DNA of 36,079 nt, taken from NCBI RefSeq assembly GCF_004570875.1, contig NZ_SPQK01000029.1, positions 1 through 36,079 of the forward strand. Direction: 5' to 3'. The stretch comes from Blastococcus sp. CT_GayMR16. GTDB taxonomy: Bacteria > Actinomycetota > Actinomycetes > Mycobacteriales > Geodermatophilaceae. A model generated the notes under the pieces. That model searched no databases. It was not told the DNA's origin and was given only the letters and a program-made list of their open reading frames with translations. Position numbers and translations under genes: made by a program. Shown piece after piece: positions 18,872 to 25,296 of the stretch; the first letter of the stretch is position 1, and every line of letters begins with the position of its first letter.

Positions 18872-19810
18872 CTATGCGTGACTGCCGCGGTCGAATGCCC
18901 GTCGGAGCCGTTGCTCGAGGACGCGCGGCTGGGAGAGCTCGGCCCAGGTCCATCGGACGACCTGCCAGCGGAGGTCCCGCAGTTCGTCCTCACGCCGCTT
19001 CTCCTGGAAGACGACGTCGCCAGGCTCTTGCCCTGGCTTGACGAGGCGGCCGTACTTCACCTTGCCGTCGAATTCGCCCAGCGTCCGGTGAGCGCGCCAG
19101 CCGAAATCACATCGGCCGACGATCGACCCGTCGGCCCGCAGCACATGCACCTGGAGGTCAGGGGTCGGAAGCCGCAGCCGGTGCATGAGCACCCGGCTTC
19201 GGCTTTCTCCGACGCTCTCGCTGAACCGGCTGGCGAAGCGGAGGACACGAGCGGCTCTCCGCGTTCCGGGAACCGGGCCCATCCGTCCGAGGCACTCGAG
19301 CAATGCGCCGAAAGACGTGTGGCCCGAAGCGAGTGCATGGTCCGCGACCACCACGGCGGACTCGAACAACTCGCTCCGGGCCACATCCACCACGGTCCGA
19401 GTGGCGTTGGTCGTGAGGATCCCGTCGACGAGGGTCAACTCGTGCTCGGGTAGCCGGGCGACGTGCAGGTGCACCCGGGCGCTGCCGCTGCCACTCGCAG
19501 GCGGACGGCGGAGGACGTGCACCCTCCCGAGCTCGATGCCCCAGACGGGCAGGCCGTGCATCGCGGCTGCCGACGCGTGGCTGGCGACCGTTTCGGCACG
19601 CAGTCCCCTCATCGTCGCGGCGACCACCAGGCGATGCCGCGCGGCGCCATCGGTGGGGAGCACGGTCGGTGCCTGCGAGTAGGCCCCACGCTGCAGCCGG
19701 ATCAACTCCCGCCGCCGCACCATCCGGGCGAGCTCGGCGTCCGTGAAGCCATCGGTCACGGCGTCGGCGCGGCGCAGGATGTCGGTGGGCGTGATCTCGG
19801 GCTCGGACAC
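18872..19810 (-). CDS. AbiEi-type N-terminal domain and DUF559/Vsr-like nuclease-fold protein
   Basis: A 312-residue protein. The N-terminal winged helix (residues about 8-45, FTDAELARMVRRRELIRLQRGAY) resembles the AbiEi antitoxin DNA-binding domain, followed by a middle domain with VASHASAAAMHGLPVW. The C-terminal part has the Vsr/DUF559 PD-(D/E)xK layout: E202, D235 in VGRCDFGW and E246/D248/K250 in GEFDGKVKY, then RWQVVRWTW. Such orphans are common in actinobacteria; no AbiEii partner toxin lies beside it. Whether it cuts DNA is not known. It is bracketed by palindromic repeat copies 2 and 3. GTG start, weak ribosome site. Confidence 0.75.
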   Translation of the reverse strand: MSEPEITPTDILRRADAVTDGFTDAELARMVRRRELIRLQRGAYSQAPTVLPTDGAARHRLVVAATMRGLRAETVASHASAAAMHGLPVWGIELGRVHVLRRPPASGSGSARVHLHVARLPEHELTLVDGILTTNATRTVVDVARSELFESAVVVADHALASGHTSFGALLECLGRMGPVPGTRRAARVLRFASRFSESVGESRSRVLMHRLRLPTPDLQVHVLRADGSIVGRCDFGWRAHRTLGEFDGKVKYGRLVKPGQEPGDVVFQEKRREDELRDLRWQVVRWTWAELSQPRVLEQRLRRAFDRGSHA

Positions 19811-19860
19811 CCGTCGAGCCTCGCTGCGCGGGGTCGGGGGTGGCGTGATCCAGCAGGACC

Positions 19861-19869
19861 TGTGGATAA
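19861..19869 (-). other. Isolated perfect DnaA-box sequence
   Basis: The minus strand reads TTATCCACA, the classical DnaA box. It lies 51 bases upstream of the AbiEi-like gene and next to palindromic repeat copy 3. A single box is not an origin; it may be chance or a titration/regulatory site. Confidence 0.25.
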
Positions 19870-19880
19870 CACCCTGGTGC

Positions 19881-19943
19881 CTCTTGCGCCGTTGCCCGCA
19901 CTCTCGCGGTGTTGCAACGGCGCTGGAGCACCGGAAAGGGCGC
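19881..19943. repeat. Palindromic intergenic repeat, copy 3 (degenerate)
   Basis: CTCTTGCGC at 19881 and CTCTCGCGG at 19901 keep the 20-base period of copies 1 and 2, and GTTGCAACGG corresponds to the loop region. The outer stem is eroded; a 10-bp stem pairs 19886-19895 with 19914-19923. It lies between the end of the flagellar cluster and the AbiEi-like gene. Confidence 0.55.
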
Positions 19944-19974: not shown

Positions 19975-20229
19975 TCAGTCGGCTGCGGGCTCGTCGGCCG
20001 CGGCTGCGGACGGGGCCGTGGGGCGTGCGCCCGACCTGGCCGGCTTGACGGGGGTGCGCGGCGTGCTCGCGTACTTCAGCAGCGCGACCGCACCCCAGCC
20101 GGCCGCGAGGCACCAGGGCAGCCGGATCATCATTTCCTCGGTCGTGAGATCTCCACGCAGCCCGAGCGCGAGCACGGGCAGGGCCAGTACGAACCCGACG
20201 AGGAGGACGTCCCAGCGGAAGGGGCTCAT
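19975..20229 (-). CDS. Small membrane protein coupled to the FlhF-like gene
   Basis: An 84-residue protein whose ATG overlaps the FlhF-like stop (ATGA). Two hydrophobic segments (about residues 7-24 and 36-52) are separated by a short polar loop with DLTTEEMM; a Pro/Ala-rich basic tail follows. I know no family for it. It takes the place where flhG usually follows flhF. It is the last gene of the cluster, so its level should follow that of the FlhF-like protein. Confidence 0.7.
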   Translation of the reverse strand: MSPFRWDVLLVGFVLALPVLALGLRGDLTTEEMMIRLPWCLAAGWGAVALLKYASTPRTPVKPARSGARPTAPSAAAADEPAAD

Positions 20230-23200
20230 GTCTGCGGGTTCTCCAGCCGCTCACAGAGGAGCGAGGCCCAGCGGTGCGGCGTCGCGCGGGCGCCGTCGAT
20301 GAGGGCGACGGGGGCATCCACGCGGCGGAGCACGGCGGCCGGGTCGGCGCTGAGGTCGGTGTCCTGGACGATGAGCGCGTCGACCTGCGGCAGCCCGTCG
20401 ATCCACGGCTCGAGGTCCTCGGGCTTGCGGGTGGCCTCGACGACCGCCCAGACCGCGACCGGCGTCCAGATGGCCATCATCTGCGCCGTCCAGTACGCGT
20501 CGGTGCGCATCGGGGCGTCGACGGCGACGATCGTCACGGTGCCGGCGATGTCGGCGTCCTGACGTCGGGTGATCGCGGCACCGACCGTGGTGACGCGGCT
20601 GCTCTCGGGCGCGAGGCCGGCGAGGTCGCCGCGGGTGGCCCACTGCACGCGGTCGGGGTCCAGCCGCAGCGAGGCCGCGAGCGTCTGGGCCGCGCGCAGG
20701 GTCTCGATGCCAGGGCCGACCACGAACAGGACCTCGCCGGCACCGGTGGGCAGCTCCGGGACCGTCGGGAGGTGGAGGGCCAGCGCGCGGGTCAGTGCGG
20801 CGTAGGTGCCCATCTCGGCGACGGCGTCGGCGAAGGTCGCGCCGAGGAGGGCGCGGGGCACGCCGAGCTCGACGAGCCGGTCGGCGACCTCACCCGTGGC
20901 GGGCGCCGCAGGGGTGCCCGGGGCGGAAGCAACCGGCTCGGCGACGGCGACGGTGGCGGTGGCGGTGGCGGTCGTAGTGACCGGCGCCGCGGGCTCGAAG
21001 AGGTGCTCGGGGAACTCGGGGACCTCCGGGCTCGCCATGAGCGGTGCGACCGGCAGCCGGGTCACGGTGGCCAGCAGCCGGCTCGGTGCCGGCTGGGCCG
21101 GCGCGGGAAGGGGTGCCCACACGTCCTCGGCGGCCGGGACGACGGGGGCGTCGGTCTCCGGGGCGGCCGGCTCGACGGCCGGCGCCGTCGGGGCGGGGGG
21201 CGTGGCAGCGAGGGCCTTCGCCGCGGGAGCGGCCGGCGGCGGAACGGCGCGACGGGACGGCGCCGGCGGCACCGGCGGGCGCCCTCGGCCACGGGACCCG
21301 GGGAGCGGCGGAAGCAGCGACAGCGGAGGCATGACGGTCGTGGAGTCGAACGACATCATCGGGGCCGGGTCGCTGGCGGTGCGGGCCAGGAAGGGAGCCA
21401 GCTCCTCGGCGACCGCCTCGGCGAGCTCCTCCTCGATGGGCTCCTCGACCTCGGACTCGGCGACGACCTCGGGCTCCTCCTCGACGACGGCTTCCGGGGC
21501 GTCGGCTTCCGGGGCGTCGGACTCCTCCGCGACCTCGTCCACCGGCTCGTCGAACAGGAACGCCTCGACCGAGGGGGCGCTCGTCTCACCCGACGCCACC
21601 TCGGCCCAGATGGGCGCGGGGATCGTCGCGGCCGGCGCGACGGGCTCGCCCCACAGCGTCGCCGACATCGACGGGGGACCCCACATGTTGGTGGCCGGCG
21701 CAGCCACCCACGCGGGGGAGGGCGGCCGCGCCGCGGGGGCGGACGCGAACATGCCGGACGTCTCGACGGGTGCGGCGGTGCGGGACTCGAACATGGGGAC
21801 CTCGAAGATCGGGGCCTCGTGGACCGGCGCCTCGAACACGGGCACCTCGAACGCGGCGGCGGCGGGCTCCGGCATGACGACCTCCGGGACGACGACCTCG
21901 GGAGCGGGGGACTCGGCGGTGGGCTGCTCGATCGCGGGGGTCTCGACGGCGACGTCCTCGAAGGCGACGTCCTCGACGTACTCGGCAGTCACGGGCTCGA
22001 CAACGACCTCGGGCGCGACGAACTGCGGCACGGCGGCCTCGGGGACGGCCACCTCAGGGACGGCCACCTCAGGGACGGCGAACGTCACGGCCGGGCTCGC
22101 GGGAAGGTCCTGGAGGACGTTGTTCTCGAGCACGACCTGCGGCGTCACCGCCGCGTCGGCGTCCGGAGTGGTGAGCGCCGTCTGCGGCGAGGCGCCGGCG
22201 AGCACCTTGCGGAGGATGCCGGCGAGCGCCTCGTCGGAGTGCCCCTGCGCAAGGGCGGAGCGCAGCACCTCGGCGATCGCCTCCTCGCGCGAGGAGACCG
22301 ACGCCGTCGCGACGTCGGGCTCGGCGGCCCACGTGGGCACCTCCACCGTCTGGGTCATGCTCGAGGAGGGCGCGATGACCTGATCTCCCACCGTTTCCTC
22401 CTCCTGGCGCGTCGCAGGCGACGACACCGATGACTCTGCAGTTCGCCCGGGCCGGGACGGCCGGGGCTCGGCGTCGGCGCCGGGGCGCGCCGTTCCGGGT
22501 CGAACCAGTGCTTCCTCGACCGCCTGCTGCACGTCCCGGTCGCCGGCGACCATCCGCGCGAGCGCGGCGGTGAACGGGGACGGGGCATCCAGGACGTCGG
22601 CGGGGATGACGCGCTTGTCGGCGTCCCGGCCGAAGGGCGTGGCCGGCACGTCGCCGTCGAAGGAGGACGTCGGACCCGTGCGCGGGAAAGAGGCGCGCGG
22701 GAACGTGGAGCGGGCGTAGGCCGGGGTGTCCGCCTCGGCCTGCTTGGCGGTCAGGAGGGCCGCGAGCTCGCTGACGCGGTCGTCCTCGACCGGAGCGGGC
22801 CGCTTGGCCGGCGCCGCAGCGGCCGGAGTGGACTGCCACGCAGGTGCGGACGAGCGCGCGGCCGGTGCAGCGGACCAAGTGGACGAGGACGACGGGGCCG
22901 CAGTCGAGGTGCGGGTCGACGAGGGGGTGTCCGTGGAGCGGACGGCCTCCGCGGCCCACGCGGCGGCTCCGTTGCGGGCGGGAGCCGCGGCGCGGGCGCG
23001 CGCCGGCGCAGCCGAGGCCAACGGCGAGGAGAAGTCCGCGGGGACGTCGTCGGAGAGCGCTTCGGCGGGCGAGCTGACGGCGGGGACGGCGGGCCGGTTG
23101 GTCAGGTCCGGCGCCACCTCGGCCACGTAGCGCTCGGTCGCGAAGAAGCCGAGCACCCCACCGGAACGCACCCGGCGGACGCCGACCACGCGTGCGGACG

Positions 23201-23270
23201 GGCCGAACTGCTCGCGCGCCGCGGCGATCGCGTCGTCGCGCGTGGCGGCCTCAACGGATCGCAACGGCAC
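20226..23270 (-). CDS. Degenerate FlhF-like protein with a very long low-complexity linker
   Basis: A 1014-residue protein directly after flhA, the usual site of flhF. The first 50 residues (AATRDDAIAAAREQFG, then ARVVGVRRVRSGGVLGFF) match the FlhF N-terminus. Residues about 55-790 are Pro/Ala/Glu/Val-rich with VPEVA-type repeats and acidic runs. Residues about 794-1014 follow the SRP-GTPase layout, but every GTP motif is eroded: FVVGPGIETL replaces the P-loop, VAVDAPMRT replaces DTAGR and VQDTDL replaces TKxD. EATRKPEDLEPW and the final PVALIDGARATPHRW still resemble FlhF. Normal FlhF is near 400-500 residues. GTG start with GGGAG nine bases upstream; 20-base overlap with flhA. Confidence 0.7.
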   Translation of the reverse strand: MPLRSVEAATRDDAIAAAREQFGPSARVVGVRRVRSGGVLGFFATERYVAEVAPDLTNRPAVPAVSSPAEALSDDVPADFSSPLASAAPARARAAAPARNGAAAWAAEAVRSTDTPSSTRTSTAAPSSSSTWSAAPAARSSAPAWQSTPAAAAPAKRPAPVEDDRVSELAALLTAKQAEADTPAYARSTFPRASFPRTGPTSSFDGDVPATPFGRDADKRVIPADVLDAPSPFTAALARMVAGDRDVQQAVEEALVRPGTARPGADAEPRPSRPGRTAESSVSSPATRQEEETVGDQVIAPSSSMTQTVEVPTWAAEPDVATASVSSREEAIAEVLRSALAQGHSDEALAGILRKVLAGASPQTALTTPDADAAVTPQVVLENNVLQDLPASPAVTFAVPEVAVPEVAVPEAAVPQFVAPEVVVEPVTAEYVEDVAFEDVAVETPAIEQPTAESPAPEVVVPEVVMPEPAAAAFEVPVFEAPVHEAPIFEVPMFESRTAAPVETSGMFASAPAARPPSPAWVAAPATNMWGPPSMSATLWGEPVAPAATIPAPIWAEVASGETSAPSVEAFLFDEPVDEVAEESDAPEADAPEAVVEEEPEVVAESEVEEPIEEELAEAVAEELAPFLARTASDPAPMMSFDSTTVMPPLSLLPPLPGSRGRGRPPVPPAPSRRAVPPPAAPAAKALAATPPAPTAPAVEPAAPETDAPVVPAAEDVWAPLPAPAQPAPSRLLATVTRLPVAPLMASPEVPEFPEHLFEPAAPVTTTATATATVAVAEPVASAPGTPAAPATGEVADRLVELGVPRALLGATFADAVAEMGTYAALTRALALHLPTVPELPTGAGEVLFVVGPGIETLRAAQTLAASLRLDPDRVQWATRGDLAGLAPESSRVTTVGAAITRRQDADIAGTVTIVAVDAPMRTDAYWTAQMMAIWTPVAVWAVVEATRKPEDLEPWIDGLPQVDALIVQDTDLSADPAAVLRRVDAPVALIDGARATPHRWASLLCERLENPQT
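22042..22080 (-). repeat. 15-bp tandem repeats inside the FlhF-like linker
   Basis: GGGACGGCCACCTCA occurs twice in tandem (22042-22056, 22057-22071) with a partial third copy, encoding repeated VAVPE units. The exact DNA identity shows recent duplication rather than selection for a repeated peptide alone. Confidence 0.7.
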
Positions 23271-25296
23271 CGCTCACAACTCCCAGCGATTCGATCTGTG
23301 CTGTCCGGGAGACCTCGGCATAGGAGATCACCGGAAGCCGGGGAAGAACCTGCCGCATCAGGCGTGCCAGGGCGGCCCGGACCTGGGGCGAGCAGACGAG
23401 CACGGGGGAGAAGCCCGATCGCTCGGCCTCCTCGAGCAGGCCGGAGCAGCCGTGCACCAGGGCGTCGATGGCTCCGGCGTCGAGGGCCAGCACCACACCG
23501 GCGTCGCTCTGCCGGACCGACTCGAGCAGGCGCTGCTCGAAGCCCGGGTCGAGCGTGAAGACGTGGAGGCGCTCGTCGGGCGTCACGTACGGATGGCTGA
23601 TCGCCGAGCCCAGAGCCGCCCGGGCCGCCTCGACGAGACCGTCGAGATCGGTGGACGTCTTTGCACGTACAGAGAGTGCCTCGAAGATGCGCACCAGGTC
23701 CCGGATCGACACACCCTCATCGAGCAACGCGTGCAACACGCGTTGCACCTCTCCCAGGGTGAGCAGAGTGGGGGTCAGTTCCTCGACCACGACGGGGTGC
23801 GTCCGGCGGACCATCTCCACCAGGAGGCGCACGTCCTCGCGCCCGAGGAGGTCGGCGGCGTTCTGGCGGACGACCTCGGCCAGGTGGGTCGTGATGACCG
23901 ACGAGCGGTCGACGACGGTCGCGCCGGCCATCTCCGCCTGCCGCTGCAGCTCCACCGGCACCCACTTCGCGGCCAGGCCGAAGACCGGCTCGCGGGTGGC
24001 CTTGCCGGGCAGGCCGTCGAGGTTGTCGCCGATGGCCAGGACGGTGCCCGCGGGCGAGATGCCCTTGGCCGCCGGAACGCCGTTGAGCCAGATGACGTAC
24101 TGCGAGCCCGGGAGGTCCAGGTTGTCGCGGGTGCGGACAAGCGGGATCACCAGACCGGTCTCCATCGCGACCTTGCGGCGCAGTGCCTTGACCCGGTCGA
24201 GCAGGTCGCCGCCGCGGGTCGGGTCGACGAGCTCCACCAGGTCGAAGGCGACCTCGAGCTCCAGCGGGTCGACCCGCATCTTCTCGGCGATGGCCTCGGG
24301 GGAGTCCGGCTTCGGCTCGTTCTCCAGCGCCAGGGCCTCTGCCTCGGCCTCGTCGTCGACGATCGGCGTCTCCGACATCCGCGAGGCCATGATCAGGAAG
24401 CCGGCACCGATGATGAGGAAGGGCAGCTTCGGCAGGCCGGGGATGAGGCACATGGCGATGGCCGCGCCGCCGGCGATGCGGATGGGCTGCTTGAACCGGC
24501 CGAGCTGGGCGATCAGGTCGGTGCCCATGTCGCCCTCGGTGGCCGACCGGGTGACGATGATGCCGGTCGCGGTCGAGAGCAGCAGGGCGGGGATCTGCGA
24601 GACCAGGCCGTCGCCCACGGTCAGCAGTGAGAACGTCGAGACGGCGTCGGCGGGGGCCATGCCCCGCTGCATGACGCCGATGGCGAAGCCGCCGATCAGG
24701 TTGATCAGCGTGATGATGATGGCCGCGATCGCGTCGCCCTTGACGAACTTCGACGCACCGTCCATCGAGCCGTAGAAGTCGGCCTCGGCGGTGACCTCGT
24801 AGCGGCGCTTGCGCGCCTGGGCCTCGTTGATCAGGCCGGCGTTGAGGTCGGCGTCGATCGCCATCTGCTTGCCGGGCATGGCGTCGAGGGTGAAGCGGGC
24901 GCCGACCTCGGCCACGCGGCCGGCACCGTTGGTGATGACGACGAACTGGATGATCGTCAGGATCACGAAGATCACGAGGCCGACGACCAGAGAGCCGCCG
25001 ATCACGAAGTGGCCGAACGCCTCGATGACCTTGCCCGCGTAGCCGTCGGTGAGCACGAGTCGGGTCGAAGAGACGTTCAGCGACAGCCGGAACAGCGTCG
25101 CGATGAGGATCAGCGACGGGAAGACGGCGAAGTCCAGCGGCCGCCTGATCTGCATCGACACCAGCAGGATCAGCAGCGACGCGGTGATGTTCAGGCCGAG
25201 CAGCAGGTCCAGGACGGCGGCCGGCAGCGGCACCACCAGCATGAGGACGATGGCGACGACCCCGATGGGGACGGCCATCTTGCTCATGCCCTTCAT
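23251..25296 (-). CDS. flhA: Flagellar export gate protein FlhA
   Basis: A 681-residue FHIPEP family protein of normal length. Eight hydrophobic segments occupy the first 330 residues, including the family motif region RFTLDAMPGKQMAIDADLNA (about 134-153) used in proton-coupled export. The cytoplasmic domain (about 360-681) forms the nonameric ring that receives chaperone-substrate complexes. It sits in the membrane inside the basal body. Start at 25296 has GGGGTGG upstream, but that site lies in a perfect palindrome (25304-25315). A 131-base gap separates it from flhB. Its end overlaps the FlhF-like gene. Confidence 0.96.
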   Translation of the reverse strand: MKGMSKMAVPIGVVAIVLMLVVPLPAAVLDLLLGLNITASLLILLVSMQIRRPLDFAVFPSLILIATLFRLSLNVSSTRLVLTDGYAGKVIEAFGHFVIGGSLVVGLVIFVILTIIQFVVITNGAGRVAEVGARFTLDAMPGKQMAIDADLNAGLINEAQARKRRYEVTAEADFYGSMDGASKFVKGDAIAAIIITLINLIGGFAIGVMQRGMAPADAVSTFSLLTVGDGLVSQIPALLLSTATGIIVTRSATEGDMGTDLIAQLGRFKQPIRIAGGAAIAMCLIPGLPKLPFLIIGAGFLIMASRMSETPIVDDEAEAEALALENEPKPDSPEAIAEKMRVDPLELEVAFDLVELVDPTRGGDLLDRVKALRRKVAMETGLVIPLVRTRDNLDLPGSQYVIWLNGVPAAKGISPAGTVLAIGDNLDGLPGKATREPVFGLAAKWVPVELQRQAEMAGATVVDRSSVITTHLAEVVRQNAADLLGREDVRLLVEMVRRTHPVVVEELTPTLLTLGEVQRVLHALLDEGVSIRDLVRIFEALSVRAKTSTDLDGLVEAARAALGSAISHPYVTPDERLHVFTLDPGFEQRLLESVRQSDAGVVLALDAGAIDALVHGCSGLLEEAERSGFSPVLVCSPQVRAALARLMRQVLPRLPVISYAEVSRTAQIESLGVVSGAVAIR

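Follow-up and report, generated by a model that had tools for sequence, protein, structure and literature searches.

The 36,079-nucleotide stretch of Blastococcus sp. CT_GayMR16 analyzed here (contig NZ_SPQK01000029.1, hereafter the window) carries a cluster of flagellar genes which, as identified with Pfam, are transcribed in the order fliK, flgE, motA, motB, fliL, fliM, fliN, fliO, fliP, fliQ, fliR, flhB and flhA. The last of these is directly followed by the gene considered in this study, an open reading frame (ORF) whose listed start lies within the 3′ end of flhA (20-base overlap). An earlier note on this DNA had described its product as an FlhF-like protein on account of this position, its N-terminus and a C-terminal domain devoid of GTPase motifs, and each of these observations was confirmed. 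FlhF normally uses GTP to decide the location of the flagellum. The protein encoded in the window consists of three parts (Table 1), i.e. a short N-domain, a long linker and a C-domain. Its descent from FlhF is well supported, and because the GTP-binding site has been lost yet evolution has kept the protein, its present role is probably that of a GTP-free scaffold.

Table 1. Location of the pseudo-GTPase gene, its parts and its upstream neighbor within the window.
Feature	Residues	Position	Strand	Characteristics
FlhF-derived pseudo-GTPase gene		20226..23270	minus	GTG start, 1014 codons + stop
flhA (upstream neighbor)		23251..25296	minus	Pfam FHIPEP, E 3.3e-256
N-domain	1-54	23109..23270	minus	beta-alpha-beta-beta model; matches FliG-interacting domain (FID) of FlhF; motif RSGGVLGFF
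Linker	55-789	20904..23108	minus	735 residues; Ala/Pro/Val/Glu-rich; mean identity 0.32
Conserved linker island	222-259	22494..22607	minus	core SPFTAALARMV
Conserved linker island	619-675	21246..21416	minus	linker conservation
Pseudo-NG domain (C-domain)	790-1014	20229..20903	minus	N helices + degenerate G domain
P-loop relic VVGPGI	850-855	20706..20723	minus	five columns of GxGKT deleted
G3 relic	918-922	20505..20519	minus	DTAGR replaced by DAPMR
G4 relic	968-972	20355..20369	minus	TKxD replaced by QDTD within VQDTD

The C-domain is predicted to adopt the NG fold of the signal recognition particle (SRP) type, as is characteristic of FlhF, and the earlier note's proposal of FlhF descent, which was to be judged by such a prediction, stands. 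In a profile-profile comparison the C-domain matched P-loop-bearing proteins encoded at the same position with E 1.6e-7 over 190 columns, while five reversed profiles gave values from 0.19 to 0.59. The profile used (Dc) was composed of 45 rows: 21 of the 62 rows of alignment A2, the window as an additional row, and 23 of 27 proteins of the window type found downstream of flhA. Comparison of single C-domain sequences gave no clean separation of FlhF from FtsY/Ffh.

None of the motifs Walker A, DTAGR and TKxD occurs in any of the 37 rows of alignment A1 or the 62 rows of A2, both of which include the window. A2 comprises the window and 61 of 80 related loci kept by a genome scan (Blastococcus, the nearest, Geodermatophilus, Modestobacter, Klenkia and their kin), and a further alignment, A3, comprises the window and 23 of 56. 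In the structure model domain residue 63 is the last of a strand and the following helix starts at residue 65, which leaves one residue at the site of the former P-loop. The earlier proposal of a GTP-independent, scaffold-like protein gains support from this destruction of the nucleotide site, within the limits of a deduction from anatomy and purifying selection.

Three features speak against a nucleotide-free protein: the fold is predicted to be intact, an invariant lysine (domain residue 160) aligns with the lysine of the TTK segment in intact FlhF, and the last aspartate of the old G4 is retained in most Geodermatophilaceae. They would fit a site that still binds a ligand, either another nucleotide or GTP through altered residues, and remains a switch. 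Such a switch seems improbable, given that the P-loop is deleted, with a single residue left to join strand and helix in the model, and that DTAGR and TKxD are missing from all 62 rows.

The FlhF model of NCBIfam (TIGR03499) matches residues 5-108 of the window protein with E 4e-5 and 23.7 bits, a score below the curated cut-off of 174.15. The N-terminal B domain, or FID, of FlhF is recognizable in this protein. A sequence search of the PDB with the N-domain alignment returned seven matches, all with E of at least 0.39, and FlhF was not among them. Because the conserved N-domain corresponds to the FID of FlhF, FliG and the C-ring are a likelier end for the protein than the export gate, and the earlier idea of a tether from the export gate is not borne out (cf. 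PMC11236974). A FliG gene is present in the same Blastococcus genome.

It is very improbable that an unrelated scaffold replaced FlhF at this position and came to resemble it by convergence. Such a replacement would be in keeping with the low identity of the C-domain to the listed SRP GTPase structures (11-18%) and with Pfam, which gives no match whether the whole 1014-aa protein or its C-domain is searched. It is contradicted by the shared gene position and domain order, the significant profile matches of both the N- and the C-domain, and intermediates in which a P-loop is still present.

The linker is composed of 22% Ala, 15% Pro, 11% Val and 10% Glu, has no Cys and only five Lys, and contains short tandem repeats with a period of 6-18 bp, in agreement with the Pro/Ala/Glu/Val-rich, repeat-bearing region noted earlier. 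Across the window and 18 of the 56 loci with a recognizable N-domain motif, mean identity is 0.83 in the N-domain and 0.78 in the C-domain versus 0.32 in the linker. Since the linker holds conserved islands (those of Table 1 and two others at residues 157-181 and 727-749), its role may go beyond that of a spacer. The length of the linker, counted from the N-domain motif up to where the C-domain match begins, ranges from 390 to 1372 residues (median 674.5) in 56 Geodermatophilaceae proteins (the motif was found at 56 of the 80 loci), and from 76 to 659 in 30 proteins from outside the family (30 of the 33 other window-type rows described below). Length thus appears to be mainly a trait of the Geodermatophilaceae, in which the linkers are longest; the linker of ~700 residues described in the earlier note is typical of this family but not a property of all relatives.

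The linkers of other lineages share a motif, STExxxFxxxLxxL, which is possibly a candidate binding motif. It was found in a set of 26 linkers shorter than 420 aa, from which four near-copies had been dropped, with an expectation-maximization score of 677.7 (six starts) versus 408-443 for four shuffles (only two starts). Many relatives outside the Geodermatophilaceae carry it (L038, L040, L173, L175, L208, L211, L216, L228 and others). No match to the motif was obtained for the linker of the window protein (p 0.74), so we do not claim it for this protein. Similar segments, FATFLRRQL, were observed in the group with a shorter C-domain (see below).

To what extent the gene is typical was established by reading the position downstream of flhA at 95 loci: 51 other flhA-bearing genomes of a 296-genome sample of the phylum, 37 genomes of a 325-genome sample of the class (40 of which have flhA, three being common to both samples), and seven relatives picked for their C-domain. 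A genome with FlhF but no flhA match (G174) and the second contig of G166 were left out of the counts. The N-domain is encoded directly downstream of flhA at 78 of the 95 loci, or 71 of 88 without the seven chosen ones. The N-domain model was built with 62 of the 78; among the 33 loci not used, 16 match it (E 2e-10 or better), some of them being close kin of the model rows, and 17 do not.

With the window included, 96 rows were sorted. In 13 of them an intact FlhF precedes FlhG, and 11 others have a P-loop but lack FlhG. The window type accounts for 34 rows, a shorter C-domain is present in 12, no C-domain is recognized in three, six are cut by a contig end and the protein is absent from 17, of which three (L158, L170 and L171) lie near a contig end. 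Leaving out the window, Walker A is present in 13/13 and 11/11 rows of the first two classes and in 0/33, 0/12 and 0/3 of the next three. For L044 the state was assigned manually on the basis of its C-domain in A1, as the 3.3-kb stretch that was read ended inside this gene. The pseudo-GTPase is therefore not an oddity of one genome, and the slot is filled at most of the flhA loci sampled.

The shorter C-domain (L178, L181-L184 and L186-L192) occurs in one part of the FlhA tree, and row L238, of the same class, falls with this group. In profile comparison this type shows no match to intact FlhF (E 0.33) and only a weak one to the window type (E 0.0039 over 60 columns), so that an NG ancestry is at most putative for it, although these rows are scored as lacking a P-loop on the tree.

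The distribution of FlhG parallels that of intact FlhF. Directly downstream of each of the 13 intact flhF genes read lies a gene for an FlhG that bears a DQAxxLR motif. A search based on these 13 proteins at E 1e-40 found FlhG in 14 of the 296 genomes, exactly the 14 with FlhF over the cut-off; as the model was drawn from 13 of those genomes, an FlhG that has diverged strongly could escape detection. In the fifteenth genome of the FlhF search, G136, an FlhF below the threshold has both P-loop and DTAGR, and there is no FlhG. Over 52 flhA genomes the FlhF/FlhG table reads 13/0/0/39 (Fisher p 1.6e-12, kinship ignored). No FlhG was found at E 1e-40 in the genome of the window, either downstream of the gene or elsewhere.

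An intact FlhF encoded elsewhere, which the earlier note had listed as an argument against its proposal, was sought as well, and none over the cut-off was found in this genome or in the 325 genomes of the class sample. Sub-threshold TIGR03499 matches in 41 class genomes are read, from the sizes of their open frames, as the paralogues FtsY and Ffh. The other matches to SRP54/FlhF models in the genome of the window are two short fragments and two genes with an intact P-loop (398 and 528 aa), which we read as FtsY and Ffh. TIGR03504 (FimV C-terminal family) has no match in this genome; as 14 control genomes gave none over the cut-off either, this absence of FimV/HubP says little.

The FlhA tree (quick IQ-TREE run, drawn with a midpoint root; 96 rows, 12 of them odd in composition, and four long branches) places all rows without a P-loop in one group of 67 rows (Shimodaira-Hasegawa-like approximate likelihood ratio test, 100). 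This group includes 49 scored rows and five cut rows with the protein versus 13 without it, and presumably corresponds to the derived actinobacterial classes. The state of the P-loop (24 rows with, 49 without, 23 not scored) requires one change, most naturally read, with the root itself inferred, as a loss in a common ancestor. Among the P-loop-bearing rows without FlhG, the G3 motif is already eroding (DTAGR, DTPGC, DTPGI, DTTSV, DAPAL and others) with the P-loop still in place, which suggests that FlhG was lost before G3 eroded and the P-loop was deleted last.

Purifying selection is indicated by a median ratio of nonsynonymous to synonymous substitution rates (dN/dS) of 0.21 in the Geodermatophilaceae, obtained from the window and 36 of the 80 loci (52 pairs kept, with identity above 80% and dS below 1.5). 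Some loci nevertheless weigh against a lasting role of the NG relic: two slot proteins (L209 and L210) keep an FID-like N-domain with a short tail and no recognized C-domain, the C-domain is shorter in the group of 12 rows, and the protein is missing at 17 of the 95 loci. Such cases would be expected if FliG binding by the N-domain alone mattered and the C-domain were a dying remnant drifting under relaxed constraint. We regard this as unlikely, though the least unlikely of the alternatives, since the C-domain is 52-91% identical to that of the window over 61 Geodermatophilaceae relatives, is far better conserved than the linker under the low dN/dS given above, and stands without a P-loop in all 34 window-type rows. 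One relative (G014) has a C-domain match on each of two contigs (C97 and C112), with 92 and 93% identity to that of the window, perhaps owing to a strain mixture in a metagenome assembly.

We therefore favor, with a probability of roughly 0.7, the interpretation that the gene is this lineage's FlhF turned pseudo-GTPase, which docks on FliG via its N-domain and is anchored via a nucleotide-free NG relic, without FlhG. The mechanism can be sketched by analogy. The N-domain would bind FliG in the manner of the N-terminal 60 residues of Shewanella FlhF, and the NG relic would hold the other end on an anchor partner, in the way that Shewanella NG binds HubP, with the linker setting the reach. The protein may then, at a chosen site, recruit FliG/FliF or chaperone their assembly constitutively, without a GTP/FlhG on-off cycle; most simply, it would be a constitutive scaffold bringing FliG/FliF to a site set by the partner of the pseudo-NG domain. 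We lean, somewhat less firmly, towards the broader view that a single loss of the P-loop took place in the ancestor of the derived flagellated actinobacteria, and that the protein was retained throughout their radiation as a nucleotide-free, FliG-binding positioning scaffold that allows FlhF-type placement without GTP or FlhG.

Directly after the pseudo-GTPase gene, and overlapping it, lies an 84-aa ORF (19975-20229, minus strand) which resembles a two-helix membrane protein and matches no Pfam family above the cut-off. In 36 of 88 slots, ORFs that measure 90-190 aa and encode two hydrophobic segments were seen downstream of flhA, and such ORFs also occur in slots that have no FlhF relative (L171, L172, L213, L224 and L229). 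Further downstream of the flagellar genes there is a 312-aa ORF (18872-19810, minus strand), and a 150-residue piece (19463-19912, minus strand) weakly matches AbiEi_4 (E 0.0037, below the cut-off).

Among proteins of known structure, 3gku is annotated as a 'probable RNA-binding protein'; we take it to be a Jag protein, whose gene context presumably differs from that of the window gene, and Pfam finds no RNA-binding domain in the window protein. Work on FlhF treats it as a GTP switch under the control of FlhG. In the present case both switch and controller appear to be gone, with a domain of the FliG-binding type and the NG fold conserved, so that nature has performed an experiment separating the scaffold role of FlhF from its enzyme role.

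In Shewanella, FlhF ties the polar landmark HubP (via NG) to FliG (via FID) and lets FliG meet FliF, its GTPase being stimulated by FlhG (PMC11236974). According to a 2023 survey, the derived (non-FlgFG) actinobacterial classes lack FlhF (PMC10746217); our results, read as FlhF being present there but unrecognized, revise that statement. A study of Blastococcus reported flagellar genes without motility in its strains and cited motile type strains, and the text available contains no mention of FlhF (PMC9686282). No description of FlhF or another SRP-family member as a pseudo-GTPase was found among the open-licence papers listed in our searches, which do not amount to a full review, and none of those listed in a search from 2023 on held both FlhF and pseudoGTPase.

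The window protein resembles FlhF (TIGR03499; structures 2px0/2px3 and 8r9r, FID 9en1) in its slot after flhA, its FID-like N-domain, its linker and its C-terminal NG fold. It differs in lacking P-loop, DTAGR and TKxD, in the 735-residue linker, in the absence of a detected FlhG and in its score of 23.7 bits against a cut-off of 174.15. The FlhF relatives described here also stand without FlhG, unlike the flhF and flhG genes that a review describes as consistently encoded together (PMC12826062). FtsY and Ffh (SRP54) are different again: the genome of the window has both, as read, as separate genes with an intact P-loop, and they are reported to have no FlhF N-domain (PMC11236974). A parallel in kind is offered by degenerate septins, pseudo-GTPases of another family which reportedly have kept the GTPase fold for assembly after catalysis was lost (PMC10731463).
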